Assembly: GCA_951828515.1 (NCBI GenBank)
Contig: OX639992.1
Span: 1,116,001-1,180,000, forward strand
Reading direction: 5' to 3'
DNA: 64,000 bases
Origin: an uncultured Poribacteria bacterium
Lineage (GTDB): Bacteria; Poribacteria; WGA-4E; WGA-3G
The notes below the pieces were generated by a model that saw only the letters and a list, made by a program, of their open reading frames with translations, was not told the DNA's origin and made no database searches. Below, one piece after another: positions 3,934-58,189 of this stretch. The position numbers and the translations under genes are program-made. How positions within the stretch are numbered: position 1 is the stretch's first letter; the number at the start of each line of letters is the position of its first letter.

Positions 3934-3951
3934 AGTTTCAGTTCCTTCCAT

Positions 3952-7710: not shown

Positions 7711-7728
7711 AGTTTCAGTTCCTTCCAT

Positions 7729-25067: not shown

Positions 25068-25252
25068 TACTATCAGGACAAACGCAAAACCTTTTGCAGT
25101 CGGGGTTTGTAACCGAAAACCGAAGCCATCCCACCTGTTACTTGGAAAGGGGTACCTGCCGCAGTTCTGTAGGTTGGGTTAATCGGTAAAGACGACCTAT
25201 GTTTATTCAGAAAATGACATTTTGCCATGAAGCATTTAAGGAGCAAATAACT

Positions 25253-28200: not shown

Positions 28201-29419
28201 TCACTACAACTTTGTAGATCGTTATAGTTCCGATTATCAAGATCGGGCCCCTGTTACCCTAAAAACAGGAGAAAACATCCTACTGGTCGCCGTTTACAAG
28301 GCAGGCGGCCGCTGGAGCGGATTTTTCGGGTTCGCTTCAGATGCCGAATACACTGTCCTGTCACCTGGGCCCCGCTTTTCTCTCACCACAGACACAACAG
28401 AATTCCAAACCGATACCAAATTCGTCATTCGTCTCAACGCCGCAAATATGGAAGACTTAGCCGGATGGCAGACAGATGTACTCTTCGACCCAACTGTCCT
28501 AAAAGCGAACAGCATCACCGAAGGCACCTTCCTCAAACAGGGAAATGGACGGACCTACTTCCGCAGTGGCACCATCGATAACACAACTGGCAGAATTACA
28601 GGGATAAGTGCCGCACGGCTCACCAGCGGCGTAGAAGGAAGCGGAACACTTCTCGCAATCAACTTCACGCTCAAAAAAGCGATGAACACCCCAGTCCGAC
28701 TCCGAAACCTCAAAGCCGGAGATAGCAACGGCCAATCAATCCACATGACTTCACCCGAATTCCGCATCCGCCTAAAAACCGAGACCTCCACGACGATACC
28801 CGCATGGGATGTCAACGAAGATGGTATAACGGATATCACCGATCTGATTTTGGTGGCGACGGTACTCGGTACCAATTCGCCTGAGAACCCGCGCCTTGAT
28901 GTCGATGGGAACGGGACAGTCAATATCCAAGACCTCCTCCTCGTTGCGACACACCTCGGTGAGACAGTGGGAGCTGCGGCACCCGCCCTTGTTGCGTTGC
29001 CAGAACGTCTGACACCGGAAACACTTCAGCAGGCACTGGATCTCTTACGGACGCAGAATGACGGATCCCTTGCCTTCCAACGCGCAATCGCGAACTTAGA
29101 GCAGCTGCTGGCAGCGTTGATGCCAAAAGAAACAGCACTGTTAGCAAACTACCCGAACCCGTTCAACCCAGAGACCTGGATACCGTATCAACTCGCCGAA
29201 TCTGCTGAAGTTACGCTACGTATCTATGTTATAAACGGAGAATTGGTTCGCACGTTAGCACTCGGACATCAACCGGCAGGCATCTATCAAACCCGAACTC
29301 GTGCCGCCTATTGGGATGGTAAAAACGCCTTCGGTGAACCCGTCGCCAGTGGTATCTATTTTTACACCCTCACCGCAAGCGAGTTCACATCAACACGAAA
29401 AATGCTGATCCGCAAGTAA
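25253..29419 (+). CDS. Giant cytochrome c-motif/LRR/cohesin-like/dockerin surface protein with Por-like tail
   Basis: 1388 residues. After a signal peptide comes a planctomycete-type cytochrome c domain with CLDCH (about 41-45) and MPLGQPPLDDASLQVISDWI; a second heme motif CIGCH lies near 404-408 inside a region I do not recognise. Internalin-type LRRs span about 580-855. A PA14-like domain covers 860-1040 (WLWMIVSTG; TMLIGSSDAVKVWLNGELVH). A cohesin-like domain lies at about 1041-1175 (LAGWQTDVLFDPTVLKANSI and GSGTLLAINFTL). A dockerin-like domain is at 1183-1236, and the Por-like domain occupies the last 90 residues. The start ATG 25253 has AAGGAG nearby; the longer frame from 25199 lacks one. 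Having cohesin and dockerin in one chain is unusual. Electron transfer or attachment at the surface is only inferred. Confidence 0.85.
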   Translation: MNQSKYFYRIFLIIIALGFIHTASAQQELAQQAYLILQTKCLDCHGPHGTFTENLVIDSASGLVDTGVVVRGQPLNSNLYARLITTDNTKRMPLGQPPLDDASLQVISDWIAAGAPNWETQHDVTFIPTDAMLTAMQQHIQTLNPFDQPFARYFTMTHLYNAGESPEARNAYKIALAKLVNSLSWGFDIHNPHPIDDTETLFYIDLRNYDWDLRDAWTQIENVYPYAIAFDAETQAGLHAKLTNLQQTMDCDVPFVHVDWFLATASLPPLYHNILRLPETERELERELDVDAHRNLQRDPGRRVWRAGTNDSGVSRHNRVVERHTARYGAYWKSHDFAGSADAQNIFTHPLSFERDGGEVIFNLPNGLQAYYIADKSGTRINVAPTEIVSDPAAKDPAVHNGLSCIGCHTEGMKTFTDQVRSVIEQTANPLYDKDYALLLYVTQDKMDALLAEDTARYKTALEKTGGVFGGIEPVHRFYEAFQDALEAPDAAAVVGLQTEDFLSQIRKKSSLQNLGLTGLTSGGNVKRDAWTQRFSEIIIALNSPDTPVTTTPSTVRPVQPTPSGIVRIPDPNLRSVIERLLEKENGAAITPEDMERLNRIEADENGIRDLTGLEYATNLERIEFRHNAISDLTPLTNLIRLNNIKLRGNQITDVAPLAKLFNVEWMGLEENQITDFSRLQNLKKLNGIGISGNPVTDVSPLAGMISLEGIAARNTRITDFSPLANLPRLQWIEFGNDPTISTLPSLTGIKTLRRLEITGTKISDISGLAELTQLTQLDLERNLISDISPLSNLKKLIELRLDNNQIADISPLSGLTNLKELSLTDNFISDFSPLESLPEIITINAQGNPGNFIDLSAPKITKSWLWMIVSTGNIGGARAAKSGVDFLARASDGEVTELKVATDGATEGNPVGSKVWTIGELSPTYHSNLEVMGRDTGLLLVDNFENHVAYGFLVLESPREQQTTMLIGSSDAVKVWLNGELVHYNFVDRYSSDYQDRAPVTLKTGENILLVAVYKAGGRWSGFFGFASDAEYTVLSPGPRFSLTTDTTEFQTDTKFVIRLNAANMEDLAGWQTDVLFDPTVLKANSITEGTFLKQGNGRTYFRSGTIDNTTGRITGISAARLTSGVEGSGTLLAINFTLKKAMNTPVRLRNLKAGDSNGQSIHMTSPEFRIRLKTETSTTIPAWDVNEDGITDITDLILVATVLGTNSPENPRLDVDGNGTVNIQDLLLVATHLGETVGAAAPALVALPERLTPETLQQALDLLRTQNDGSLAFQRAIANLEQLLAALMPKETALLANYPNPFNPETWIPYQLAESAEVTLRIYVINGELVRTLALGHQPAGIYQTRTRAAYWDGKNAFGEPVASGIYFYTLTASEFTSTRKMLIRK

Positions 29420-33553: not shown

Positions 33554-34663
33554 ATGAAAACAGAAACATACGAGTTCTACCATCAATCTAACTTGATACA
33601 GCTCGGCAATTTGATTGACGATCTGCATGGTGTGCATGTTCACCTTTTGATGTTGCAGAGACGCTATTATCGTATCTATGGTAAATATGCGTCCTTTGCC
33701 CGCATCTGCAATCATATCACGCAGTTGAAACAGCGGACGAAACCGCATTGGAATCAGCTGCCGAGTCAGGTCATCCAACAAGTCGCAAAACGTATTCACT
33801 TGGGATACGAAAAGTTCTTTGATAATATCAAAGACCGAAAAGCCGGTAAAACAAAACGTAAAATCGGTAGACCGAAAATCAAGCCGAATCATAAATATAA
33901 CTCCTTGACGTTCACACAAGCAGGTTTCAAAATAGAAGGCAATCGGTTGAAAATCAACTGTCTCGGTAAGTCCTTCACGTTTTGGAAACACCGCGAGTGG
34001 ACGGGGAGTATCAAAACCGTCACAATCAAGCGTGACCGCGTAGGCGACTACTACCTCTACATCACCTGTGAGGATTGCGAACCTTCCGAGAAACTCCCAT
34101 TGACCGGTAATGTGGCAGGGGCGGACTTCGGAATAAAAACATTTCTCACACTTTCAGATACCACGAGAATAACGTCCCCCGAATTCTATAAACAAGGTTT
34201 CAACGCAATCCGTTCAGCAAACAAGGCACTCTCCCGCAAGCAAAAGGGTTCAAAGGCATGGTATCGTGCAAAGTGGCATCTCGCCCGTGTTCATAAACAA
34301 ATCACCCATAGGAGACGCGATTGGTTCTTCAAATTGGCACTTCGGCTTGTACGTAAATACGATACACTTGCGATAGAGACCCTGAACCTTGAGGGGATGA
34401 AACGCCTCTGGGGACGCAAAATCTCTGATATTGCCTTCGGTGAATTTGCTTTGATCCTCCAATGGACTTTTGCGAAACATGGTAAAACATTCTTGAAAGC
34501 GGGACGTTGGGCAGCGACGACAAAACCGTGTTCGGCTTGTGGACATCCCAACGAAAATCTAACACTCCAAGATAGGCAGTGGATATGCCCTGACTGTGGT
34601 TCACACCACGATAGAGACGTAAACGCTGCTATCAACATTTTGCAGGCTGGGGTACCCGCGTAA
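33554..34663 (+). CDS. tnpB: TnpB-type RNA-guided nuclease (IS605 OrfB)
   Basis: 369 residues. The split RuvC site is intact: Asp in GADFGIK (about residue 190), Glu in AIETLNLEGMK (about 275), and Asp in HHDRDVNAAINIL (about 355). The zinc ribbon CSACGHPNENL ... CPDCGS lies between the last two. TnpB proteins cut DNA next to an element-specific flanking motif, guided by an RNA from the element's right end, and help the element persist. All key residues are present, so it is probably active. It lies between recA and a secreted-protein gene with no operon relation to either. Confidence 0.92.
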   Translation: MKTETYEFYHQSNLIQLGNLIDDLHGVHVHLLMLQRRYYRIYGKYASFARICNHITQLKQRTKPHWNQLPSQVIQQVAKRIHLGYEKFFDNIKDRKAGKTKRKIGRPKIKPNHKYNSLTFTQAGFKIEGNRLKINCLGKSFTFWKHREWTGSIKTVTIKRDRVGDYYLYITCEDCEPSEKLPLTGNVAGADFGIKTFLTLSDTTRITSPEFYKQGFNAIRSANKALSRKQKGSKAWYRAKWHLARVHKQITHRRRDWFFKLALRLVRKYDTLAIETLNLEGMKRLWGRKISDIAFGEFALILQWTFAKHGKTFLKAGRWAATTKPCSACGHPNENLTLQDRQWICPDCGSHHDRDVNAAINILQAGVPA

Positions 34664-34840: not shown

Positions 34841-35572
34841 ATGATGATGTTAAAGCGAAGTTTGGCACTCAGTTTCGGACTCCTGTTTTTGGGGTTCAAT
34901 GCGTTTAGCAACGTGTGGTACAGTGAAAATTTTGACGACTTTAAAGATGGTGACATCGCTGGACAAGATGACTGGGAAACGGCGATGAACCAAAAAACTT
35001 GTCAAATTGGAAGTGAAGTGACGCGCGGTGACACAGGCAAAAGCATTCTGGTCACAGAAAACACAATGGTCACCAGAAGTTTTGAAGGCACCCATGATGG
35101 CATTCAGTACGTTTCATTATTCACGCAGCGGGACAAGGGCGGAGGCATAATGCTGTTTTATATAGGTGGAGATGCCATCAAGTGGGGAGGGGCTGCCGTG
35201 TTTAATACTCGGGGGGACACCTCTATCCATGCGCTCGACGGCAATGCAGGACAACAGGTGGGGGAGGTGAAACTCGGTGAATGGCATCATTTCCGCATCG
35301 TGCTTGACTTTAAAAAGAAAACTTATGACTTTTACGTCGATGACGAACAAATCGTTGACGATTTCGGTTTTAGAGGCGAAGGGGGCAAAGGCGGCGTGAA
35401 TCCGAGTCTCAGCTGGATCTTCTTCGGTTGGGACCACCCCGATGCTCTGACCGCTTATATTGATGACATTGAAATGGGAGACGGTGAGGGCGAAACGGCT
35501 GGCAAACCTCAAGCGGTTTCCGCCTCAGACAAACTCGCGACCACTTGGGGAAGAATCAAGCAGCGATTGTAG
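34841..35572 (+). CDS. Secreted jelly-roll (LamG/DUF1080-like) protein with W-G tail
   Basis: 243 residues. A signal peptide covers about 1-23. The mature protein begins NVWYSENFDDFKDGDIAGQ and follows the concanavalin-like beta-sandwich pattern (GEWHHFRIVLDFKKKTYDFY, ALTAYIDDIEMGDG), as in sugar-binding or DUF1080-type proteins. It ends in the short tail KLATTWGRIKQRL, which also closes four other genes in the window. CAGGAG precedes three successive ATG codons. The guide region of the TnpB element runs into its leader. Ligand unknown; extracytoplasmic location inferred from the signal peptide. Confidence 0.75.
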   Translation: MMMLKRSLALSFGLLFLGFNAFSNVWYSENFDDFKDGDIAGQDDWETAMNQKTCQIGSEVTRGDTGKSILVTENTMVTRSFEGTHDGIQYVSLFTQRDKGGGIMLFYIGGDAIKWGGAAVFNTRGDTSIHALDGNAGQQVGEVKLGEWHHFRIVLDFKKKTYDFYVDDEQIVDDFGFRGEGGKGGVNPSLSWIFFGWDHPDALTAYIDDIEMGDGEGETAGKPQAVSASDKLATTWGRIKQRL

Positions 35573-35688: not shown

Positions 35689-35803
35689 CTAATAAAAGTG
35701 TTGGGTTTGAATCTGGAACTCGACCGAATCTGATTATCCGCGTCCCTGACTCTCATTGCAGGTGAGGTTGGAAAAATCGTTTTGGAAAGTGAGAACTTCA
35801 CGT

Positions 35804-37588
35804 ATGGCTATCAAAAGAGGAAATTCCACGGATTCCTTTGAGGAGAAAGAGAGCGGCGATGCTGTTTGGTATCAACAGCAAATTCGCACACTCCAAGGGA
35901 CCATTGACATGCTCAAAGGCGAGCTTGAAAGCATGCGGCAACAGCAGCGTGCTGTATATGTCAAGGACCTTGAAACTCGACTCTATGAAATGCAGCGCGA
36001 GTTGATGACGGCACATCGGCGGAACAAGAAACTCACGAGCACGCTTCAAGAGGCGAAAGAGAAACTGGAGATCCTTAAGGAAAAGGTCGCCCAATTGAGC
36101 GCACCCCCCAACAATTACGGAGTCTTCCTCGCTTCAAACGAAGATGGCACTGTTGATATCGACATCAGCGGTAGGAAATGGCGTGTCAATCTTGATCCGT
36201 CACTTAGAGATAAAGACCTTGCGGTTGGACAAGAGGTTATTGTTAATAGCGGGATGAACGTCGTTGACATCAAAACTGCTGAAAAGCACGGGGATGTTGT
36301 TAAAATTAAAGAGCGAATTGCGGATGAACGTGCCATTGTGAGTCTCCGCACGGATGAAGAACGGGTCGTTAGAATATCAGAGTCCCTCAAAGAGGAATCG
36401 CTGAAAATCGGGGATCACGTCCTTCTCAACCATACGACCAGTATGCTCATGGAAAAACTTCCGAAACGGGAAGTCGAAGACTTGCTACTTGAAGAGGTGC
36501 CGAATATCGGTTACACAGACATCGGTGGTCTCGATACACAGATAGAAGCGATTCGGGATGCGGTTGAGTTGCCCTATCTCTATCCGAAGGAGTACAAGGA
36601 ATTTAACCTCTCGCCTCCAAAAGGGGTTCTCCTTTATGGGCCGCCCGGTTGTGGTAAAACTTTAATCGCTCGAGCTGTCGCCAGCAGCATCGCTGAGCGT
36701 GTAAGAAAAGAGACCGGTAGAGACGAAATTCGCGGCTATTTCATCAATATCAAGGGACCTGAACTGTTAAATAAGTATGTTGGTGAAACTGAACGTAAAA
36801 TTCGGGAAGTTTTCCAAAAGGCGCGCGATAAATCGAGAGAAGGGTTTCCTGTTATCATTTTCTTTGATGAAATGGATTCCCTGTTCCGATCCAGAGGCAT
36901 GGGAATCTCATCGGATATGGAATCAACGCTTGTACCGCAATTCCTTTCCGAAATTGATGGTGTTGAGAACCTTCGGGATGTCATTGTTATTGGCGCGAGC
37001 AATCGACAGGATCTCCTCGACCCCGCCGTTTTAAGACCCGGCAGGCTGGATGTGAAAATCAAAATTGATCGCCCCAATCTTAAGGGTGCTAAAGACATCT
37101 TCGCTATATACCTGACCCCAGACCTTCCGTTCTCTGAAGAAACTTGTCAGCAGTTCGATGGAGATACGCAGGCGATCGCGAAGCACTTCATTGATGACGC
37201 GGCAAACGAAATGTACGCAACGACTGATGAAAATCGTTTCATTGAGGTGACTTACGCTCGTGGCGAACGGGAAATGCTCTTCTTTAAAGACTTTGTCAGT
37301 GGCGCAATGATCGAAAACATCGTTTCACGTGCGAAGAAAACAGCGATCAAACGCTTTATTGGTTCTGATGGGATTGACAAAGGGATGCGTCTTGAAGATC
37401 TGAGAGCAGCTATCCGGGAAGAATACCACGAAAACGAGGATCTTCCGAACACTACGAACCCTGATGATTGGGCAAAAATATCGGGCAGGAAAGGTGAAAA
37501 GATCGTTAATATCCGTGCTTTGATTAATGAGCCGACACAGGAGAAAAAACAGGATGTCCGGGTGACCCGAGGCGGTACATTCCTTTGA
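35804..37588 (+). CDS. arc: Proteasome-associated AAA+ ATPase (ARC/Mpa)
   Basis: 594 residues. An N-terminal coiled coil (about 20-95) that in Mpa captures Pup is followed by tandem OB folds (about 100-230) and one AAA+ module: GPPGCGKT Walker A near 279-286, FFDEMD Walker B near 352, and the SRH region SNRQDLLDPAVLRPGRLD. It unfolds pupylated substrates and feeds them to the 20S core. The C terminus reads GGTFL: the docking tail of actinobacterial Mpa has Tyr as the penultimate residue, and here it is Phe. ATG 35804 is preferred over a TTG at 35756 because the conserved protein begins near it. It heads the proteasome locus. Confidence 0.95.
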   Translation: MAIKRGNSTDSFEEKESGDAVWYQQQIRTLQGTIDMLKGELESMRQQQRAVYVKDLETRLYEMQRELMTAHRRNKKLTSTLQEAKEKLEILKEKVAQLSAPPNNYGVFLASNEDGTVDIDISGRKWRVNLDPSLRDKDLAVGQEVIVNSGMNVVDIKTAEKHGDVVKIKERIADERAIVSLRTDEERVVRISESLKEESLKIGDHVLLNHTTSMLMEKLPKREVEDLLLEEVPNIGYTDIGGLDTQIEAIRDAVELPYLYPKEYKEFNLSPPKGVLLYGPPGCGKTLIARAVASSIAERVRKETGRDEIRGYFINIKGPELLNKYVGETERKIREVFQKARDKSREGFPVIIFFDEMDSLFRSRGMGISSDMESTLVPQFLSEIDGVENLRDVIVIGASNRQDLLDPAVLRPGRLDVKIKIDRPNLKGAKDIFAIYLTPDLPFSEETCQQFDGDTQAIAKHFIDDAANEMYATTDENRFIEVTYARGEREMLFFKDFVSGAMIENIVSRAKKTAIKRFIGSDGIDKGMRLEDLRAAIREEYHENEDLPNTTNPDDWAKISGRKGEKIVNIRALINEPTQEKKQDVRVTRGGTFL

Positions 37589-37678: not shown

Positions 37679-39223
37679 ATGGCTTCTTCGCTGATGGCTA
37701 ATAAAAAAATGGAAATACCAATAATAATGGGAACAGAGACTGAGTACGGTATCTCAGTCAAAAATGCACGCGAGCAGGATCCGGTTGCCGCTTCCACCTT
37801 GGTAGTGAACGCCTATAAAACGTCAAGGGATGATATTCCGAGTGCAACTTCTTCTGTCACATGGGATTATGAACAAGAAAGTCCTTTGATGGACGCTCGT
37901 GGGTTTCTCGCTGAGACGGAAACACCTATCAGCGAGGCAGATACAAATAGCGTTGTCAACGATATATTGATAAACGGGGGACGTTATTACGTAGACCACG
38001 CCCACCCAGAATATTGCACGCCGGAATGTGCCAATGCACGCGATCTGCTTCTCTACGAAAAGGCGGGAGAATTAATATTGGAAGTCAGCAGGGTAACAGC
38101 TGAACGCCTTTTGCTTGACAACCAAGAGATTATCATCTATAAGAATAATACCGATTACAAAGGGCATAGCTACGGTTCCCATGAGAACTATCTCATGTCC
38201 CGAAAAGTGCCGTTTGATGCGATTGTCAATGGGTTGACCCCCTTTCTCGTTACGCGTATTATTATCACAGGTAGCGGCAAAGTCGGGGCAGAAAACGGAA
38301 GTAACGAAACAAACTATCAGATTTCTCAACGCGCCGACTTTTTTGAGAAAGAGGTAGGACTCAGCACTATGGTGAATCGGCCTTTGATTAACACGCGCGA
38401 TGAACCGCATGCTGATGATAAAATCTATCGACGTTTGCACGTCATCGTCGGTGATTCTAACATGTCTGAATACAGCATCTACCTCAAAGTTGGCATTACT
38501 TCGATAGTGCTTCAGTTGATTGAGAAAGGTGTTGTCGGAAACCAACAATTCAGTTTAAAGGATCCTGTCGCGGCAATAAAAAGTATTTCACGAGACCTTT
38601 CGTGCAAAAATCAGATAGAACTCGCGGACGGAGAGCAGTGGACCCCGATACAAGTACAGCGTGCGTACCTGAAACTCGCGCAACAACATCTCACAGCCGA
38701 AGAGCGGACCCCTGTCGTTGAAGATGTCCTCGAAAAATGGCAATATGTGCTTGACAACTTAGAAATCGATCCGATGCGGCTCAGCCAACATCTCGACTGG
38801 GTCATTAAAAAGAAATTGATAGAGGCTTATCGCAAACGACACGGATACGAATGGACTGATGCGCATGTGCAGATGCTTGACTTACAGTATCATGATATCC
38901 GTCCGGACAAAGGACTTTACATTAGACTGCTGAAAAACGGACATGTGAAACGGTTGCTTAGCCATGAAGAAATTGTGCACGCGATGCACTATCCGCCTGT
39001 GGATACTCGTGCGTATTTTCGCGGCACCTGTTTACGGAAGTTTCCGAAGCATATTTACAGTGCCAGTTGGAACTCAATGATTTTTATTGGTAAATCGGGT
39101 GGGCTTGATAAAATTATGATGGATCGCCCCCACTTCGGCACCCAAAAGATCGTTGGTGAATTGCTGAACAACTGCACAGCAGAAGAACTCGTTAGAGAAA
39201 TCCGAGGAAATTCTTCAAAATAG
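37679..39223 (+). CDS. dop: Deamidase/depupylase of Pup
   Basis: 514 residues of the glutamine-synthetase-like Dop/PafA family. Dop rather than PafA is indicated by the inserted loop after residue 45 leading to VTWDYEQESPLMDARGF and by YVDHAHPEYCTPEC; it also has GTETEYGI at the start and KNNTDYKGHSYGSHENYLMS, INTRDEPHAD, RLHVIVGDSNMSE (nucleotide and metal binding). Dop converts the C-terminal Gln of Pup to Glu and removes Pup from substrates. Several in-frame ATG codons (37679, 37697, 37709) are possible starts, none with a clear ribosome binding site. It follows the ATPase gene by 90 bases. Confidence 0.95.
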   Translation: MASSLMANKKMEIPIIMGTETEYGISVKNAREQDPVAASTLVVNAYKTSRDDIPSATSSVTWDYEQESPLMDARGFLAETETPISEADTNSVVNDILINGGRYYVDHAHPEYCTPECANARDLLLYEKAGELILEVSRVTAERLLLDNQEIIIYKNNTDYKGHSYGSHENYLMSRKVPFDAIVNGLTPFLVTRIIITGSGKVGAENGSNETNYQISQRADFFEKEVGLSTMVNRPLINTRDEPHADDKIYRRLHVIVGDSNMSEYSIYLKVGITSIVLQLIEKGVVGNQQFSLKDPVAAIKSISRDLSCKNQIELADGEQWTPIQVQRAYLKLAQQHLTAEERTPVVEDVLEKWQYVLDNLEIDPMRLSQHLDWVIKKKLIEAYRKRHGYEWTDAHVQMLDLQYHDIRPDKGLYIRLLKNGHVKRLLSHEEIVHAMHYPPVDTRAYFRGTCLRKFPKHIYSASWNSMIFIGKSGGLDKIMMDRPHFGTQKIVGELLNNCTAEELVREIRGNSSK

Positions 39224-39539: not shown

Positions 39540-40334
39540 GTGCTTGACCTCAATGATTATGGCACTTCTGATTTCTTCCAAATCCTCAAGCGTCGCCATC
39601 CCGAATTATTGGCGACATCCGATTCGTCTGATGCCGTCTCAAGTGCTCACACCTCCGAGTCGTCGTTGCGTTCTTACGAAGGCACAACTGTTTTAGCGGT
39701 TGTTTATAATACTGGTGTCGTCATGGCTGGCGACCGGCAGGCAACAGAAGGGTATCAGGTCGGCGAGCGACGAATTCAGAAAGTCTATCCAGTCGATCGG
39801 CACTCGGCAATCGCTGTTGCGGGTGCCGCGGGTCCCTGTATTGAGATGGCAAAACTCTTCCAAGTTGAGGTCGAATTCTACGAAAAAACAGAAGGGATGA
39901 ACCTCAGTCTTGAAGGGCAAGCGAATTTTCTCTCACACTTGGTGCGCTCTAATTTAGGGCTTGCCATGCAGGGCTTAATTGTCTTACCACTCTTCGCCGG
40001 TTACGACTTGAAACGGCAACGTGGTCGAATTTTCAAATACGATGCTGTTGGTGGTCGTTATGAGGAAGACGACTATTATGCAATCGGTTCTGGTGGTAAG
40101 GATGCCCGTACAACCCTAAAAAAACGGTACACTCCAGAGATTACGCGTCAAGATGCCTTAGAAATTGTCGCGGAAGCTCTCTGGGACGCTGCCGATGAGG
40201 ATATCGCGACAGGCGGTCCTGATCTCATCCGGAAAATTTTCCCAACACTTTACACTATTACCGAAGAAGGAGTCGCCGAGATTCCTGAGGCTACCGTAGA
40301 AGAACTATACCGGGAACTCATATCGCGCCTATAG
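39540..40334 (+). CDS. prcB: 20S proteasome beta subunit
   Basis: 264 residues with a GTG start. A 48-residue propeptide precedes the autocatalytic junction SYEG/TTVLAVVYNTG; cleavage exposes Thr49 as the N-terminal nucleophile. Counting from it, Asp17 (VVMAGDR) and Lys33 (RRIQKVY) of the catalytic triad are both present. The rest follows actinobacterial PrcB closely (GLIVLPLFAGYD, AVGGRY, GSGGKDA, DAADEDIATGGPDL). It forms the inner rings of the core particle. It is translationally coupled to pup. Confidence 0.96.
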   Translation: MLDLNDYGTSDFFQILKRRHPELLATSDSSDAVSSAHTSESSLRSYEGTTVLAVVYNTGVVMAGDRQATEGYQVGERRIQKVYPVDRHSAIAVAGAAGPCIEMAKLFQVEVEFYEKTEGMNLSLEGQANFLSHLVRSNLGLAMQGLIVLPLFAGYDLKRQRGRIFKYDAVGGRYEEDDYYAIGSGGKDARTTLKKRYTPEITRQDALEIVAEALWDAADEDIATGGPDLIRKIFPTLYTITEEGVAEIPEATVEELYRELISRL

Positions 40335-40507: not shown

Positions 40508-41230
40508 ATGTCCACACCTTATTATGTTTCACCGGAACAAATTCGTCAGGATAAAGAGGATTTCGTCCGTCGCGGCATCGCACAGGCAAAAGAGGTTGTC
40601 GTCTTAGAATTCCGGGATGGACTACTGATGGTTGCCGAAAATCCACGCAAAACGACCTTTAAGGTTTCCGAAATTTATGACAGGATTGCCCTCGCTGCGG
40701 CAGGTAGAATCGCTGAATATGAGGCATTACGTGTTGCTGGCATTCGCGAATCCGAAATTAAAGGCTTTCGTTACTACCGTGAAGATGTCACCGCAAAATG
40801 GTTGACGAATCTCTATTCACAACACATGGGAGCAGTCGCACAAGCGTGGGACGCGAAACCCTTGGAGATTGAACTCCTTGTATGCGAGGTAGGACCCATG
40901 GACGCCTCAACGAATTCAGGGACACAGCGGAATCAGATTTATCATATTGCCTTTGATGGTATCTATTCGGAAGAGGAGAAGTACGCCGTTATTGGCGGAC
41001 GTGCCACGACGATCACAGAAATTTTGGAGCAGAATTATACAGATGATTTAGAGATGTCAGCCGCACTCCGGTTGGTAACAGAGACCTTTCAAACCGTTGA
41101 AGCAGATACCGAAGATAACTATGAAATCACCGCAGAAACGATAGAAGTGGCATGTCTTGAATACACCGCCGAGCGACGAAAATTCCGACGACTCTCTACT
41201 GACGAAGTTTTTAATTTATGGAGTTCTTGA
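40508..41230 (+). CDS. prcA: 20S proteasome alpha subunit
   Basis: 240 residues. The N terminus PYYVSPEQIRQDKEDFVRRG corresponds to the gating segment and H0 helix of PrcA; then IAQAKEVVVLEFRDGLLMVA, ISEIYDRIALAAAGR-type sequence, and SLEVACLEY-like C-terminal strand (IEVACLEYTAERRKFRR). It lacks the catalytic Thr, as expected for outer-ring subunits that gate the chamber and receive the ATPase tail. The 173 bases between prcB and prcA hold a low-complexity repeat tract and no gene; no strong ribosome binding site is visible. Confidence 0.95.
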   Translation: MSTPYYVSPEQIRQDKEDFVRRGIAQAKEVVVLEFRDGLLMVAENPRKTTFKVSEIYDRIALAAAGRIAEYEALRVAGIRESEIKGFRYYREDVTAKWLTNLYSQHMGAVAQAWDAKPLEIELLVCEVGPMDASTNSGTQRNQIYHIAFDGIYSEEEKYAVIGGRATTITEILEQNYTDDLEMSAALRLVTETFQTVEADTEDNYEITAETIEVACLEYTAERRKFRRLSTDEVFNLWSS

Positions 41231-41586
41231 TCGCGCTCGGCTCCGCTTCGCGCAGGTTTTTCATTATTCTGTAGATGATTCTTAGCGTCGGACCCGAAGC
41301 CCGTAATGAAATGGAAGGGTTTCTTCTTGAGGTTTTTGCAATGTAATACAAGGACTGGACTGAGTCTATTCCCAGACTATGGTAAAATATACAATTACCT
41401 ATACACCAGAAGATTGGCGAGGTTAGAAACCTCGCCAGCGGGGGTGGGATTTTTCGCTTCCATTGAAATGTAAACTTATTTTTATAATTCACCATAAATC
41501 CGGTGTTTCCTCAATTTCTTCAACTTGAACACGGAAAGTGTCACGGCACCAACCGCGTTACCTACCCGCAAGGTAAAATTAAAAAG
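41231..41586. other. Intergenic stretch between prcA and pafA
   Basis: It contains a GGCGAGGTT-family palindrome at 41416-41441 and GC-rich sequence just after prcA (41228-41255) but no supported gene. The frame of pafA remains open back to 41503, but the conserved protein begins at 41587. Confidence 0.6.
41416..41441. repeat. Palindromic dispersed repeat, GGCGAGGTT family
   Basis: GGCGAGGTT, AG, AAACCTCGCC, then AGCGGG. It is inserted in the middle of the proteasome locus. Confidence 0.75.
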
Positions 41587-42945
41587 ATGAAACGTAGAAT
41601 TTACGGATTAGAAACTGAATTCGGAATCATCTGGACCCCAGATGCCCCGCGTAGAAAGACCCTCACTGTTCAGAACGTTGTGATGTATCTCTTCCGCGAA
41701 ATTGTTGCTGGGAGAATGTACCCCGATGTCTTTCTTGAAAACGGTGCCAGATTCTACCAAGACATCGGATGCCACCCGGAATACGCGACCCCTGAATGCG
41801 ATGATGTCGCTGAACTTGTCGCTCACGATAAGGCGGGTGAACGCATTATCACGCGGCTTGCCAGCACTGCGGAACGGCGCATGCGCAACGACGGATTCTA
41901 TGGGAAGATTTCTATTTTTAAAAACAACTTGGATACCCCTGGAAATACGTATGGATGCCACGAAAACTATTTGATGGAACGGCACGTCGATTTCCGTCAG
42001 TTGGCATCGCAACTGATACCCTTCTTTGTAACCCGACAGGTTTTCGCAGGTGCAGGAAAAATCAAACCGAGTCATCGGGGTTACTATGCAATTTCGCAAC
42101 GTGCCGAACATATTCGAGAGGAAATTTCTATCGGCACAACAACGGCACGCGGAATTATCAACACGCGCGATGAACCACATGCCGACCGTGAGAAATATAG
42201 ACGTCTACATGTTATCGTCGGAGATTCCAATATGTCCGAGTTTTCGACTTTTTTGAAGGTGGGTACAACCGGTATTATCCTCCGCATGATCGAAGATAAC
42301 TTCATTGAGCAGCGGTTTGCGCTCCGTAATCCGGTCACAGCGATTCGCGATATTTCTGACGATATTACATGCACACACCCGATTGAACTCCAAAACGGGA
42401 AGCGGCTCACGGCTGTCGAACTACAGTGGCAATATTTAGAATGCGCGAAGCGGTATCTTGAACAAGCTGAATCCGATTCAACCACGAACCAAGTGATGGC
42501 ACGCTGGGAATACGTCCTGACATGCTTGGAAAGCGATCCGATGCAGCTGGACAGAGAACTGGACTGGGTCATCAAATGGAAGTGGTTGCAGACCTACCTC
42601 ACAAAGCGTGAACTTGAATGGGATGCCCCACAGATAAAACACTTAGATTTAAAATATCACAACGTGCGTCAGGCGGAAAGCCTCTACTATACGCTTGAAA
42701 AGCGATCAGAGACCGAGCGAATTGTCACGGATGAGCAGATTCGCCATGCTGAGCAATTTCCACCTGAACGGACCCGAGCAAAATTTCGAGGTAAGTTTAT
42801 AAAGAAAGTTAACGAAGGCAAAGTCCTATGCGGTGTCAATTGGAGTTATATTCAACTTTATGAGCCGTATCAGATCCTTTACCTTTCGACAGATCCCTTT
42901 AAACCCGAATTTGACGAAGCCAGTCGAACAATTTATTCAATCTAA
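41587..42945 (+). CDS. pafA: Pup-protein ligase
   Basis: 452 residues. PafA rather than Dop: the N terminus RRIYGLETEFGI lacks the Dop loop; FLENGARFYQDIGCHPEYAT is followed by PECD with the catalytic Asp region; then FKNNLDTPGNTYGCHENYLM, INTRDEPHAD and RLHVIVGDSNMSE. It uses ATP to phosphorylate the C-terminal Glu of Pup and form an isopeptide bond with substrate lysines. The C-terminal domain ends TDPFKPEFDEASRTIYSI, close to actinobacterial PafA. Start ATG 41587 is the only one consistent with the conserved N terminus. ppdK begins 24 bases after its stop. Confidence 0.95.
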   Translation: MKRRIYGLETEFGIIWTPDAPRRKTLTVQNVVMYLFREIVAGRMYPDVFLENGARFYQDIGCHPEYATPECDDVAELVAHDKAGERIITRLASTAERRMRNDGFYGKISIFKNNLDTPGNTYGCHENYLMERHVDFRQLASQLIPFFVTRQVFAGAGKIKPSHRGYYAISQRAEHIREEISIGTTTARGIINTRDEPHADREKYRRLHVIVGDSNMSEFSTFLKVGTTGIILRMIEDNFIEQRFALRNPVTAIRDISDDITCTHPIELQNGKRLTAVELQWQYLECAKRYLEQAESDSTTNQVMARWEYVLTCLESDPMQLDRELDWVIKWKWLQTYLTKRELEWDAPQIKHLDLKYHNVRQAESLYYTLEKRSETERIVTDEQIRHAEQFPPERTRAKFRGKFIKKVNEGKVLCGVNWSYIQLYEPYQILYLSTDPFKPEFDEASRTIYSI

Positions 42946-53841: not shown

Positions 53842-53930
53842 CGTTTTGATTTTACAAGCTATGAGGACGTATATCCTTCTTTACGATGAAATTCACAAGT
53901 TCTCTTCTTAGACGAAAAGGGAGAGAAAAA

Positions 53931-54327
53931 ATGACACGCCGACACATCCTTACATGCCTCTTTATGCTCGCTTTAATGCCGCTGAGTGCCAAAGCATTTC
54001 CACCCGCTTCACCCGCAGGCGGAAACTATTTAGTCCTCGATGGCGTGGATGACTACGCGGTTTTAGACTTTAAAACCTTCGGTATCCTCTTGCCAAAAGG
54101 CACGGACGAGTTCACCGTTGAAGCGTGGGTCTATCCGACTACACCACCTGACAGGAACATATATGCGACGATTCTCAGCCAACAGGTGCGAATGGATGTC
54201 GCGGTCGCTGCCGAGGGACGGAGGGACATCAAAAAGGGGGATTTAGTCTTAGCAACGCAAGCGCATATTACGGTTGGTCGAACCCCACGAAAAACTCACC
54301 ACAACATGGGGACGACTCAAGCAATGA
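53931..54327 (+). pseudogene. Truncated LamG-like secreted protein with frameshifted W-G tail
   Basis: ATG 53931 follows GGGAGAG and encodes a signal peptide, then a LamG-type start (NYLVLDGVDDYAVLDFKTFG; GTDEFTVEAWVYPTTPPDRN). The fold is too short (about 115 residues remain) to be complete. The open frame runs to 54335, but the family tail KLTTTWGRLKQ with its own stop lies in the next frame at 54292-54327. Dropping one A from the AAAAA run at 54290-54294 would join them. It is therefore a decayed or mis-sequenced gene. The sigma-factor gene starts 45 bases later. Confidence 0.7.
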
Positions 54328-54372
54328 ATCTCTAAAAAAGGCTTTCGTTATGGGTGTATAGGAGGGAGTCTC

Positions 54373-54628
54373 GTGGAAAGAAAAGAAGATGTTCAGTTGA
54401 TTTACGACATTTTATCGGGGAACGATGATGCCTTCAGCACGTTAGTGCAAAAGTATCAGAAGCGTGTCCATGCACTTGCATGGCGCAAGATCGGCGATTT
54501 TCATTATGCGGAAGAGATTACGCAGGACACCTTCCTCCAAGCGTACAAAAAACTCTCGACCCTCAAAAATCCGCATCAATTTGCTGGGTGGTTGTATGTC
54601 ATCGCAAATCGGCACTGCATTAACTGGC
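54373..54628 (+). pseudogene. ECF sigma factor, cut after region 2 by an IS605-type remnant
   Basis: GTG 54373 follows GGAGGGAG. The product begins with sigma70 region 2: DDAFSTLVQKYQKRVHALAW, FHYAEEITQDTFLQAYKKL, FAGWLYVIANRHCINW. It stops being sigma-like at 54628, where the right-end hairpin of a mobile-element remnant starts; the open frame continues inside the element only to 54714. Region 4 is missing, so the protein cannot act as a normal sigma factor. The lost part was not found at the other end of the element. Confidence 0.8.
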
Positions 54629-55160
54629 GTGATGCACTCCCACAGCTAAAGCAGTGGGCTTCTTACGAAGATCCGCCTCCACAAGGCATACGGACAGCGT
54701 TTTATCGCTTATAGCGACTCCAAAGGTATATGTTCCCAAAGGGTAACAATGAAACCTAAGTCACGTAGACAATGCAAGGGTCTACGACACGCACCACTTA
54801 TGCAACTACAGGGTGAGTTTTGAATGTGGAACACCCTGATACTTGACGCAATCACGGTTGCTGTCAATGAGAATCTGTCCCGTCAGTATTCTTGTTTTCT
54901 TTGTTTAGGCTACACGCGTCCTCATGGCGGTGTAGTTATCTAAATCGGGTTCTGTTCCAAGCAACAAGCAGAGTCCTCTATGCTATTTGGACGGGGAGTC
55001 ACTTCGCAAAAGGTTCGCGAAGATAGCATTGACTCCCACTGCTTGATACTACAATTATATCACATTTTTAGACAATGTGTCAACGCTTTTTGTACAGATG
55101 GGCGGCATTGACGGGGTTGGACCCAAGTCTAAAGACTTGGGATTGTTAGAGAATTCCCTT
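54629..55160 (-). mobile_element. Second TnpB-less IS605-type remnant, reverse orientation
   Basis: The right end at 54629 (GTGATGCACTCCCACAGC, hairpin CCCAC/GTGGG, GGGCTTC) resembles that of the remnant at 11271 and of the TnpB element. The left end carries hairpin CCCAAGTC/GACTTGGG (55122-55141) and a promoter. There is no TnpB or TnpA frame inside. The interior does not clearly match that of the 11271 copy. The left boundary is approximate. Confidence 0.7.
55054..55083 (-). promoter_or_regulatory. Promoter retained in the second IS605-type remnant
   Basis: On the minus strand TTGACA (55078-55083), 18 bases, TATAAT (55054-55059). Confidence 0.65.
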
Positions 55161-56069
55161 CAAAATAGGCGCGGTCCCTATGGACTTTCAACGGTTGAGG
55201 TGTATGACCCAAAAACGAATAGTTGGGAACGAGTCGCAGATATGCCAACGCCACGCACAAGTGCTGAGACAGCGGTTGTCAACGGGACAATCTATGTTTG
55301 CGGCGGCTATAATGGGGCAGGCAATCGTGCGGTCAACCTAAAATTTCTGGATATTGTAGAGGCGTACGACCCGCAGAAGGATACATGGATGAGAAAGCAA
55401 GGGATGTCCGGGGCCCGTGTAGCTTTTGGCATCGGTGCTGTTGCCGGTAGAATCTATAGTATTGGCGGGTCTGTTCACCCTTTGGACAGGGAGCCTAAGG
55501 CTCCGGGGCGTATTGACCTCGTAGAAGCCTACGATCCTGTCACTGATACGTGGGTGAAGCGAGCGAAGATGCCGACAAGGCGCTCTGGCGTTAAGGCAGC
55601 GGTTGTTCGGGACGCTATTTATGCCATCGGTGGAGGCGGGTGGCCACAAGTAGGCGCGGGGGGTCCCTTTTTGACGGTCATTGAGGAATATAATCCGAAA
55701 ATCAATCGCTGGAAAAAGAAGAATGAGATGCCCGAACTGAGGCTGTCGTTCTCGACGGTTGTTCTTGACGATGTGATTCATCTGATTGGTGGCTTCACTT
55801 GGCAAAACCGGGTTCCTCAATATCTATCAACTGTTGATACCTACAACCCAGAGACAGAAGAATGGAATAATATTCCACCGATGCCAACACCTTTTATGCC
55901 TTTTGGCGCAGCGGTGGTCGATGGCAACATCTACGTTTTCGGTGGGATCGGAGAAAACAGGGAACATTTTACCAGCGTGATGATATTTGGGAAGGGCTTT
56001 CGTGCCGTCACAGCAACCGGAAAACTCCCAACTCGCTGGGGTGAGTTGAAAGCAGAACGTGAAAATTAA
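55077..56069 (+). CDS. Kelch-repeat protein with W-G tail, 5' truncated
   Basis: The supported protein starts near 55164 (RRGPYGLSTVEVYDPKTNSW); the open frame upstream is element DNA. Six Kelch-type blades follow (YVCGGYNGAG, YSIGGSVHP, YAIGGGGWP, HLIGGFTWQ, YVFGGIGENR), each with VEAYDP or VDTYNP and a conserved Trp. The C terminus ends KLPTRWGELKAEREN, the W-G tail with extra residues. There is no signal peptide or proper start, so the true 5' part was lost, probably when the IS605-type element inserted or rearranged. It is likely non-functional unless translated from within the element. Confidence 0.7.
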   Translation: MSTLFVQMGGIDGVGPKSKDLGLLENSLQNRRGPYGLSTVEVYDPKTNSWERVADMPTPRTSAETAVVNGTIYVCGGYNGAGNRAVNLKFLDIVEAYDPQKDTWMRKQGMSGARVAFGIGAVAGRIYSIGGSVHPLDREPKAPGRIDLVEAYDPVTDTWVKRAKMPTRRSGVKAAVVRDAIYAIGGGGWPQVGAGGPFLTVIEEYNPKINRWKKKNEMPELRLSFSTVVLDDVIHLIGGFTWQNRVPQYLSTVDTYNPETEEWNNIPPMPTPFMPFGAAVVDGNIYVFGGIGENREHFTSVMIFGKGFRAVTATGKLPTRWGELKAEREN

Positions 56070-56081
56070 CCTTTGTAAGAT

Positions 56082-56120
56082 TATGCACCTTTTCCACCCT
56101 AAAATCGTGTCTTTAATAAT
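56082..56120 (+). promoter_or_regulatory. Shared 40 bp upstream element, copy 2
   Basis: TATGCACCTTTTCCACC then CTAAAATCGTGTCTTTAA, matching 53801-53841, between the Kelch gene and the next secreted-protein gene. Confidence 0.45.
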
Positions 56121-56235
56121 CGAAAGGGCTTTTTTTTAACGCCTTTTAAGTCAAATTCACATTAATAATATAAACGTGAGTTTGATAAAGATTTTAGGTA
56201 GCAATTTGGGTTACAGGTCGTAAAAGGAGATAGGT

Positions 56236-57060
56236 ATGAAACTGGTAATGATTGCAAGTATGATTTTCCTCTTTACCTTCTCAGCAAGGGCAGGGGTGTT
56301 TCAGGAAAATTTTGATAACGGAAACTTGGATGCGTGGCAGGAACTTATTATGACACAGGATTTTCTTTTTCTTGATGTGGACGATCCGCCTCCCGGTTCT
56401 TGGGAAATCGTTGACGGTGAACTTCATGCGGTAAGTCCTGATGAGAGCACGCGTCTGCTCACAATTGGTGATGAGACTTGGCGCGATTACACCATCGAAT
56501 TTGATGTCAAACCACTTGATAAACCGGGTCTTAGCAATATCGCTATTGCCGCTCGAATCAAGGGAAGTTGGGTGGCATGGTGTGTCATCGGCGATTTGCC
56601 GGCATTTCGCAAAAATGCCTCCGAAGCTCGGCTGGGTGCTGGCAATTTTCATGACCGAAACACAATTTTCTATACACATGCCGAGCTCCATCGCTCTTTA
56701 AAATTAAACAGGTGGTCGCAGTTGAAGTTGGCAGTTGAAGAAAATACCCTAAACTTTTGGATTAATGGTAAGCTGGTTATTGGACCCGTCCAACTTCCAA
56801 ACCGTAAAACCTTCAAGGATCATGAAGCTGCCAAACATGCACATCCAATTAAACCGGGAAATATAAGGATAATTCACCCATTAGCGTTAGACGGATTCCA
56901 CGACTTTTTGACAGGCGCAGCGGGCTTGGGTCTCTCGAATCAGACAGTGAGATTCGACAATATTGTAATCACCGGCGACAGTATCCCTGACAGCGGTGGT
57001 TTATCGGTAACGCCGAAAGCAAAACTCACGACGGTCTGGGGAAGTCTAAAGCGTTTTTAA
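56236..57060 (+). CDS. Secreted jelly-roll (DUF1080/LamG-like) protein with W-G tail
   Basis: 274 residues. A signal peptide covers about 1-19, then GVFQENFDNGNLDAWQELI, a start shared by concanavalin-like secreted proteins; WRDYTIEFDVKPLDKPGLSN and LNRWSQLKLAVEENTLNFWI are typical sandwich strands; TVRFDNIVITGD closes the domain. The C terminus is KLTTVWGSLKRF, the W-G tail. AAGGAG lies 7 bases before ATG. It has the same layout as the protein at 34841. Probably binds a polysaccharide or surface partner (inference). Confidence 0.8.
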   Translation: MKLVMIASMIFLFTFSARAGVFQENFDNGNLDAWQELIMTQDFLFLDVDDPPPGSWEIVDGELHAVSPDESTRLLTIGDETWRDYTIEFDVKPLDKPGLSNIAIAARIKGSWVAWCVIGDLPAFRKNASEARLGAGNFHDRNTIFYTHAELHRSLKLNRWSQLKLAVEENTLNFWINGKLVIGPVQLPNRKTFKDHEAAKHAHPIKPGNIRIIHPLALDGFHDFLTGAAGLGLSNQTVRFDNIVITGDSIPDSGGLSVTPKAKLTTVWGSLKRF

Positions 57061-57166
57061 TACATTCACCCAAGTTGCTACCAAGAGATCTTTCACATCC
57101 CAGAAAGGGGTTTTTCAGTCTCTTTCCTCACTCCAGAAGGTGTCCGTTTCAATTAAGGGGTTTATA

Positions 57167-58189
57167 ATGCGAGAGAAGCGTCTGTTTGTTTTATGTGCAC
57201 TAAGTGTCGTCATGTTATGCACGAATATTTGTGCCGTGTTCGCCAAAGCACCAACAACCCCTAAAATCCTGTTTACCTCCGCACGAGATGGCAATCGCGA
57301 AGTTTACATCATGAACCCGGATGGGAGCGAACAGGTGAGACTCACACAACATCCCGAAAACGATATGAATGCCGTTTGGTCACCGACGGGTGAACAGATC
57401 CTTTTTATTTCTGATCGCGACGGAAAGCGAGACCTATATCTGATGAACCCGGATGGATCCAATATCCGACGCATCTTCAAGAACGAACTCAAGAGAAACT
57501 TCACTTATCGGGATGATCCGACATGGTCGCCAGATGGTAAACAGATCGCTTACACGCACATCAACTGGGATAAGGATATATACGCTATCCACATTGCGAA
57601 CTTAGGGGAACAAGAAGAGAATTTCTTGGCGAATGGCTTGCATCCAGCATGGTCGCCCGACGGTGCAGAAATAGCTTATACGCCCCTTGAAGATGGTCGA
57701 ATGACGCTTATCAATGTTCGCACAGGTGCGCAAAAACGGATCCTGCCGAGAAAAGAATGGGGTGGCCAAATGAGTCCCTCTTGGTCTGCTATGGGGGACA
57801 AACTCGCCTTCTCTTGGAATAACAATCGATTGCCGCCAGACTTCAAGCGGGGCGATAAACTACCAGACGGATGGACTGATAAACGAACAATCTATATCGC
57901 CAATCGCGATGGTACCGGTCTCGAACAACTTGTTGGCGAGGCGGGTCCGATGGCATCAACGCCTAAGCTATCACCGAATGGCAAAGAACTTCTTTATACA
58001 CAGGAAATTAAGGGTTTTCTACAGATTTTCAAACTCGATATAAGTAGCGGCGTTCGGACACAGTTGACGCATATTGGAGGTGTTTTCCAAGCAAATGCTG
58101 GCGAGGACTGGTTCGATCCGGCGTATGCCTTGCCTGTTTCGCCACAACCGCAGCTGCTAACAACGACGTGGGGACAACAGAAAAAATAG
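57167..58189 (+). CDS. Secreted TolB-like beta-propeller protein with W-G tail
   Basis: 340 residues. Signal peptide to about 29 (ending AVFAKA). WD40/TolB-type blades follow, each with the PDG/SPDG pattern: ILFTSARDGNREVYIMNPDG, WSPTGEQILFISDRDGKRDL, WSPDGKQIAYTHINWDKDIY, HPAWSPDGAEIAYTPLEDG. It resembles the C-terminal part of TolB, but there is no TolB N-terminal domain and no Tol operon nearby. It ends QLLTTTWGQQKK, the W-G tail. The ATG at 57167 is chosen for AAGGGG just upstream. Confidence 0.85.
   Translation: MREKRLFVLCALSVVMLCTNICAVFAKAPTTPKILFTSARDGNREVYIMNPDGSEQVRLTQHPENDMNAVWSPTGEQILFISDRDGKRDLYLMNPDGSNIRRIFKNELKRNFTYRDDPTWSPDGKQIAYTHINWDKDIYAIHIANLGEQEENFLANGLHPAWSPDGAEIAYTPLEDGRMTLINVRTGAQKRILPRKEWGGQMSPSWSAMGDKLAFSWNNNRLPPDFKRGDKLPDGWTDKRTIYIANRDGTGLEQLVGEAGPMASTPKLSPNGKELLYTQEIKGFLQIFKLDISSGVRTQLTHIGGVFQANAGEDWFDPAYALPVSPQPQLLTTTWGQQKK

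Follow-up and report, generated by a model that had tools for sequence, protein, structure and literature searches.

The window analysed here is a stretch of 64,000 nucleotides from the genome of an uncultured Poribacteria bacterium (NCBI GenBank assembly GCA_951828515.1, contig OX639992.1, positions 1,116,001 to 1,180,000 of the forward strand). Five of its genes end in nearly the same short peptide, built around a tryptophan and a glycine, which we refer to as the W-G tail. Conservation of the tail at the protein level extends throughout the Poribacteria phylum.

The W-G tail in the window and its genome

A six-frame scan of the window with the loose motif [TSAIVLM]xWGx[ILVMQ]K returned exactly five matches, each located 1–5 residues before a stop codon. 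All five fall at gene ends where the initial annotation had described near-identical tails, and the translations agree. The annotation had also placed differing domains ahead of the tail (jelly-roll, LamG, kelch and TolB-like propeller) and signal peptides on every gene with an intact 5' end. The kelch and TolB-like propeller assignments hold; the tail protein at 34841-35572 is without a Pfam match, and 56236-57057 encodes a 3-keto-disaccharide-hydrolase-like sandwich. Signal peptides are found on 34841-35572 and 56236-57060 by rule and on 57140-58189 by eye, but not on the kelch open reading frame (ORF) at 55077-56069, whereas its paralogues have one. The 5' end of this ORF is probably damaged: either the signal peptide has been lost or the real start lies elsewhere. 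The second tail gene (53886-54324), whose tail had correctly been assigned to another frame, is a decayed copy: it aligns to residues 1–125 and 269–291 of an intact paralogue of 291 residues (G000:3279926) and lacks the middle part.

The window's genome (G000) is a single contig of 5.85 Mb. Its tails share the consensus V-x4-K-L-[ATS]-T-x-W-[GA]-x-[LIV]-K, after which the protein ends. The DNA pattern AARYTNNCNACNNNNTGGGGN, of which the stop codon is not part, matched 70 times, compared with no match for the reversed pattern that served as the control. All but one of these matches (69/70) are tails at ORF ends, the remaining one being a stray 7-codon frame. Positions left free by the pattern are nearly fixed, with the valine five residues before the lysine present in 68 of 69 tails, and the lysine three residues after the glycine, likewise not imposed by the pattern, in 69 of 69. 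Using a 20-column profile built from 57 tails, with matches taken up to E = 0.5, we identified at least 150 tail genes (150 of 309 first-look candidates scored). Every one of the 150 matches is C-terminal, with 1–17 residues beyond the last lysine of the motif. The total exceeds 150, because the fifth window tail (58151..58186), a real variant, is not among these matches. Tail genes also lie close together, with 24 gaps below 1.5 kb compared with 4.8 expected under uniform placement; tandem duplication of the ordinary kind would be another source of such clustering.

The codons of the tail vary synonymously, with leucine encoded by CTC, TTG, CTT, TTA, CTG or CTA and threonine by ACG, ACA, ACC or ACT. 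The tail is therefore conserved as protein and not as a DNA repeat, and the latter explanation is ruled out. In the alignment of LamG proteins, the tail holds four of the six invariant columns and four of the seven nearly invariant ones.

To score signal peptides we used a simple rule, namely a charged start, a hydrophobic core and then small residues. Among the tail ORFs of at least 150 residues in the window's genome, 127 of 130 pass this rule; two of the three misses are signal-peptide-like by eye, and the third is the window's kelch ORF. The signal-peptide and hydropathy counts leave out eight of 138 tail ORFs in this genome, which are shorter than 150 residues, and 12 further tails. We also analysed 93 named loci, each no longer than 8 kb and taken from other genomes, which had been chosen by a tail pattern without the stop requirement; frames running off the locus ends were excluded. 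In these loci, 120 of 123 tail ORFs pass a similar rule compared with 159 of 393 non-tail ORFs (Fisher p 3e-34), and the loose motif occurs 144 times, always at a C terminus. The initial annotation had proposed enrichment on signal-peptide proteins and C-terminal-only occurrence as checks, and both are borne out: hardly any cytoplasmic protein carries the tail, and neither the profile matches in the genome nor the 93 loci contain an internal occurrence.

The proteins that carry the tail belong to several folds. Among the 25 of 46 Pfam families listed for 132 tail proteins, the matches comprise LamG_3 (73), 3keto-disac_hyd (14), kelch (6), F5/8C (3), LTD (2), CBM_4_9 (2), CBM9 (2) and single PD40, NPCBM and ankyrin matches, counts that may overlap on one protein. 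Four of ten example tail proteins are without a Pfam match, and no sorting-tail model appears among the 25 of 45 NCBIfam families listed for the 132 proteins. A membrane-helix-like stretch is absent from the last 60 residues of all 130 proteins scored (largest 19-residue hydropathy mean 1.44, threshold 1.6), in agreement with the earlier description of the tail as lacking a transmembrane helix. There is no cysteine in the last 25 residues (0/130), and a lipobox-like stretch occurs in 2 of 130. These counts rule out a membrane anchor, a cysteine signal or a lipobox.

AlphaFold models of two tail proteins place the tail relative to the folded domain. For a LamG protein of 280 residues (49 sequences; mean predicted local distance difference test score, pLDDT, of 85.6), confidence falls from 94 in the last block of the domain to 59 and 51 in the final two blocks; the last strand spans residues 232–241, helices are drawn as well, and the tail lies after the last strand. 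For the window protein 56236-57060 (14 sequences; mean pLDDT 72.7, with residues 254–274 below 50), the last strand covers residues 236–248 of 274 and the tail lies beyond it. Both models draw a short low-confidence helix over W-G-x-L-K, not a strand. In these two predicted structures, the tail is an appendage outside the folded domain. Fold searches with both models returned carbohydrate-binding-type beta-sandwiches. The 50 matches listed for the LamG model are to clostridial-neurotoxin-type receptor-binding domains, whole toxins or complex partners, at 11–17% identity, which we read as a common lectin fold and nothing more.

Table 1. The five W-G tails of the window and the ORFs that carry them (window coordinates)
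Feature	Position	Strand	Remarks
Tail KLATTWGRIKQRL	35531..35569	+	C-terminus of ORF 34841-35572
Secreted tail protein, 243 aa	34841..35572	+	Passes signal-peptide rule; without Pfam match
Tail KLTTTWGRLKQ	54292..54324	+	Decayed LamG-type gene; frame differs from 5' part
ORF, 5' part of the decayed gene	53886..54335	+	Signal peptide and roughly first 125 residues of paralogue
Tail KLPTRWGELKAEREN	56022..56066	+	End of kelch ORF
Kelch beta-propeller ORF	55077..56069	+	Kelch Pfam match, 55098-56066; no recognisable signal peptide
Tail KLTTVWGSLKRF	57022..57057	+	Inside low-confidence AlphaFold end (residues 254-274, pLDDT <50)
Secreted 3-keto-disaccharide-hydrolase-like beta-sandwich protein, 274 aa	56236..57060	+	Passes signal-peptide rule; Pfam; AlphaFold
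Variant tail QLLTTTWGQQKK	58151..58186	+	Close variants present in named Poribacteria loci
Secreted PD40/TolB-like propeller protein, 349 aa	57140..58189	+	Signal peptide by eye; Pfam

Other features of the window include an IS605 OrfB-type transposase just upstream of the first tail gene (33554-34663, +; OrfB_IS605 and Cas12f1-like TNB). A Pup-proteasome gene set on the forward strand encodes a proteasomal-type AAA ATPase (35756-37588), the depupylase Dop (37679-39223) and a Pup-ligase family protein (41503-42945); ORFs 39540-40334 and 40508-41230 lie between the Dop and Pup-ligase family genes, where 20S subunits might be expected. A 1236-residue protein (13243-16953, +) combines two-component-regulator propeller repeats (Reg_prop) with a SpoIIE phosphatase domain.

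Distribution across Poribacteria and beyond

To assess the distribution of the tail, we searched 84 Poribacteria genomes with the DNA pattern and obtained 3,656 matches, compared with 59 for the reversed control, at a median of 46 per genome. The pattern is present in 83 of the 84 genomes and in 20 of 21 genera. In the single pattern-negative genome (G009), the profile gave 38 matches when E values up to 10 were admitted, and the seven that were read are all C-terminal tails with other residues where the pattern is fixed. Variation of this kind is also seen in the named loci, where 26 of 31 ORFs outside the loose motif but homologous to tail proteins end in evident variants, such as TQTTLWGKLK and LLTTTWGKLKTQD. 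Among ORFs near tail genes that fall outside the motif, the largest clusters occur in 14, 12 and 11 of the 93 named loci, and the representative of the second largest is itself a TolB-like homologue of a tail protein.

A codon-restricted pattern searched against 84,980 named species yielded 93 stretches, 92 of them in records titled Poribacteria; in the loci on which the two were compared, the restricted form gave 5 sites where the base pattern gave 79, so occasional tails in other phyla may have escaped the scan. The exception, L136 (JAPPIL010000222.1), lies in a bin titled Pseudomonadota and contains two tail genes with signal-peptide-like starts. In the 1.9 Mb genome of this bin, the two strong profile matches are both on the L136 contig; a second contig has two weaker ones (E 6e-4 and 0.002), and other contigs account for two more at E 0.2-0.5. 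Across 58 genomes of the bin's phylum we counted 21 matches, including the two of L136, compared with 13 for the control, which is near chance. The L136 contig is probably misbinned, and the bin's genome, whose phylum is represented by only these 58 genomes, may not be Pseudomonadota. We found no description of the tail in open PubMed Central, which omits subscription papers and most preprints.

Candidate route and alternative explanations

Given its C-terminal-only occurrence on secreted proteins of several folds, we infer, as the initial annotation did, a role in sorting or processing. The tail is likely to be a phylum-specific post-Sec C-terminal sorting or anchoring signal, whichever partner reads it. 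In the mechanism we propose, Sec would export the tail protein, the signal peptide would be removed and the domain would fold in the periplasm. The short C-terminal peptide would then dock by its invariant residues into one receptor, which would pass the protein to the outer membrane or the cell surface, whether or not cleavage takes place.

Among known export routes, type IX secretion is the one in which C-terminal domains lacking a helix are read. SprA_N (PF14349) matches 75 of 81 Poribacteria genomes and none of 14 controls, with one match each in all but one. The SprA-like ORFs are mostly 2,150-2,300 residues long. In the examples compared with TIGR04189, matches are at E 2e-34 to 5e-51, under the 200-bit cut-off wherever bit scores are listed; in one set, four of four examples match, the first at E 6e-42 (below that cut-off) and the best at 5e-51. 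The six genomes without a SprA_N match include the window's own, which nevertheless has a SprA-like ORF at G000:C1:2369872-2376732. The SprA assignment rests on TIGR04189 and PF14349, because the SprA-like alignment, searched as a profile against the PDB, returned nothing beyond a single weak match over a glycine-rich stretch (E 0.31). Peptidase_C25 (PF01364) exceeds the cut-off in 80 of 81 genomes, usually in three copies, and is found in none of the 14 controls. The three C25 peptidases of the window's genome all reach E 2e-106 or better against the PorU model, under its 420-bit cut-off, and directly downstream of one of them, the PorU-like gene, lies a PorV-family gene. The PorV family (NF033709) is over the cut-off in all 81 genomes, with 8–24 matches in each genome (17 in that of the window), compared with 1 of 14 controls, under the cut-off. 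A divergent SprA-like gene, and a PorU-like gene with an adjoining PorV-family gene, are seen at L307:1373-8233 (-), L262:4892-11401 (+), L292:4897-11232 (-) and L292:3724-4791 (-).

As judged by these models, Poribacteria encode divergent relatives of SprA, PorU and PorV, the three type IX parts covered here. A 2014 single-cell study of Poribacteria reported Por-type C-terminal domains and no Por structural genes (PMC3909097). Protein export in this phylum is reopened by the presence of such relatives in nearly all 81 genomes. We tentatively regard the divergent type IX machinery as the best candidate receptor and route for the tail, at rather less than an even chance. On this route, a SprA-like translocon, the PorU-like C25 peptidases and the multicopy PorV-like shuttle family would act together, and some PorV members would read the short tail in place of the classic, roughly 70-residue domain. 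It is also possible, with a chance only a little short of even, that the tail belongs to a second, independent outer-surface delivery system in this diderm phylum. Such a system would pair a short, helix-free, cysteine-free C-terminal code with a Poribacteria-specific receptor, possibly multicopy PorV-like members, and would deliver well over 100 lectin-like and other proteins per genome beside the divergent type IX system, itself previously reported as absent.

Several observations weigh against the proposed signal and route. The signal-peptide rule is crude, scoring 40% of the other ORFs positive. The SprA_N matches are weak and exceed the cut-off in only 29 of 81 genomes; for the proteins listed, scores against both the SprA and the PorU model fall short of the curated cut-offs. 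In the window's genome the classic TIGR04183 tail is matched 73 times, in 72 cases over the cut-off; these matches lie on other proteins, among them the three C25 peptidases, and thus the usual signal of the type IX machine is already present. As noted initially, a Por-like domain on other proteins coexists with the W-G tail: none of the 73 matches shares an ORF with any of the 138 tail genes, and the two tails therefore form distinct classes of C-terminal signal. The type IX link amounts to co-presence, with both sides near-universal in the phylum; since the tail is universal, no partner can be picked out by co-occurrence within the phylum. By reading, 8 of 21 genomes have a tail gene no more than two genes away from the SprA-like gene (9 by script, the match in G002 being doubtful as a tail). 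Seven of these eight cases are in the window's genus (7 of 7 examined) and are syntenic, so that this adjacency is largely one syntenic event and gives weak support. Any partner protease, translocon or receptor is a candidate, and the tail may serve for docking at the surface and not for export.

Four large TIGR04183-tail proteins are encoded in the window itself, at 700-3951 (-), 4819-7728 (-), 22857-25067 (+) and 25199-29419 (+); the last also matches leucine-rich repeat (LRR), Planctomycete cytochrome C, cohesin and dockerin models.

An unlikely alternative is that the tail is a processing site for a Poribacteria-specific protease or transpeptidase, unrelated to type IX, which would join the proteins to a lipid or glycan. 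The combination of K-L-x-T-x-W-G-x-[LIV]-K with 1–17 variable residues behind it does resemble an enzyme recognition motif, and exosortase, a known sorter, is improbable here (3/81 genomes); against this, a candidate enzyme is lacking and no membrane helix would hold the substrate (0/130). Somewhat less probable still is a docking peptide that, once the protein has been exported by a different route, would bind a scaffold at the surface or in the matrix, in the manner of dockerin and cohesin, and so build up a coat of small lectin-like proteins. The majority of tail proteins have matches to carbohydrate-binding-type folds, their genes cluster more closely than uniform placement predicts, and a binding peptide would likewise need a fixed face and no cleavage. 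However, propellers carry the tail as well as lectins, the scaffold would be needed in every genome of the phylum, and no scaffold or receptor was found, though no search was aimed at them.

Two further explanations can be dismissed briefly. That the tail is a functionless by-product inherited within one expanded LamG family is very improbable: LamG_3 accounts for 73 of 132 tail proteins and tails resemble one another within the kelch group, as duplication would give, but several unrelated folds end in the same tail, its conserved residues show synonymous codon variation, much of the LamG alignment's invariance falls within it and the DNA pattern spans 20 of 21 genera. Scarcely credible is the last strand of a common C-terminal domain, which the initial annotation had named as a possible refutation; the leucine, threonine and tryptophan alternate as on one strand face, but both models put the tail after the last strand with low confidence and suggest a short helix, and the domains ahead of it differ.

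Comparison with known C-terminal signals

C-terminal sorting tags have each led to a machine, namely sortase, exosortase, rhombosortase, the type IX system and myxosortase. Exosortases, rhombosortase, myxosortase and sortases need a helix on the substrate. The W-G tail had been described as matching no known signal, and it indeed fails a tested defining feature of each tag family compared.

The MYXO-CTERM/myxosortase system of Myxococcota is alike in that a C-terminal tag is found throughout one phylum on dozens of surface-sorted proteins per genome, and its tag contains an invariant cysteine and further parts (PMC11980579). In contrast, the Poribacteria tail has no cysteine in the last 25 residues and no hydrophobic segment in the last 60 (0/130 each). 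MYXO-CTERM also has a membrane helix. PEP-CTERM regions, like the W-G tail, sit on exported proteins of different folds. The PEP-CTERM/exosortase system is reported to share with the W-G tail a short C-terminal homology region on many exported proteins (PMC1569441). The Poribacteria tail differs in having neither the PEP motif nor a helix. Exosortase (PF09721) is found in just 3 of 81 Poribacteria genomes and not in the window's genome, which rules it out as the partner. The type IX domain (TIGR04183) is likewise a C-terminal signal on exported proteins, and SprA-, PorU- and PorV-like genes are present here; its model has 72 positions, whereas the Poribacteria tail spans about 20 residues with its lead-in.

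The encapsulin cargo-loading peptide, whose motif we take to be hydrophobic-G-x-L-K/R, resembles the tail in being short and C-terminal with a G-x-L-K-like core. Tail proteins, however, have signal peptides, and the encapsulin shell gene (PF04454) occurs in 2 of 81 Poribacteria genomes and not in the window's genome; together these rule out an encapsulin cargo reading. The two encapsulin genes (G001:C289:3890-4645 and G002:C314:4548-5297) belong to the two Poribacteria genomes that are most distant among those examined; the rest of the 81 have none. IPTL-CTERM, which presumably combines a P-T-x-x-W-G core near the C terminus with a membrane helix, is alike in this type of core, but the Poribacteria tail has no helix. 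The same lack of a C-terminal membrane helix (0/130) separates it from GlyGly-CTERM/rhombosortase and, with no helix after the motif (0/130), from LPXTG/sortase. Lipoproteins differ in their lipobox, of which a similar stretch is seen in 2 of 130 tail proteins.

Poribacteria are known mainly as uncultured sponge symbionts, and through the tail a large secretome of carbohydrate-binding-type proteins, possibly facing the sponge, is marked out in a single step. The tag serves a whole phylum and has no helix, cysteine or sign of a folded domain, and its reader should therefore be new, or a known machine in new use. By its behaviour, the W-G tail belongs with the C-terminal sorting tags, and there is a real chance that the machine reading it is new.

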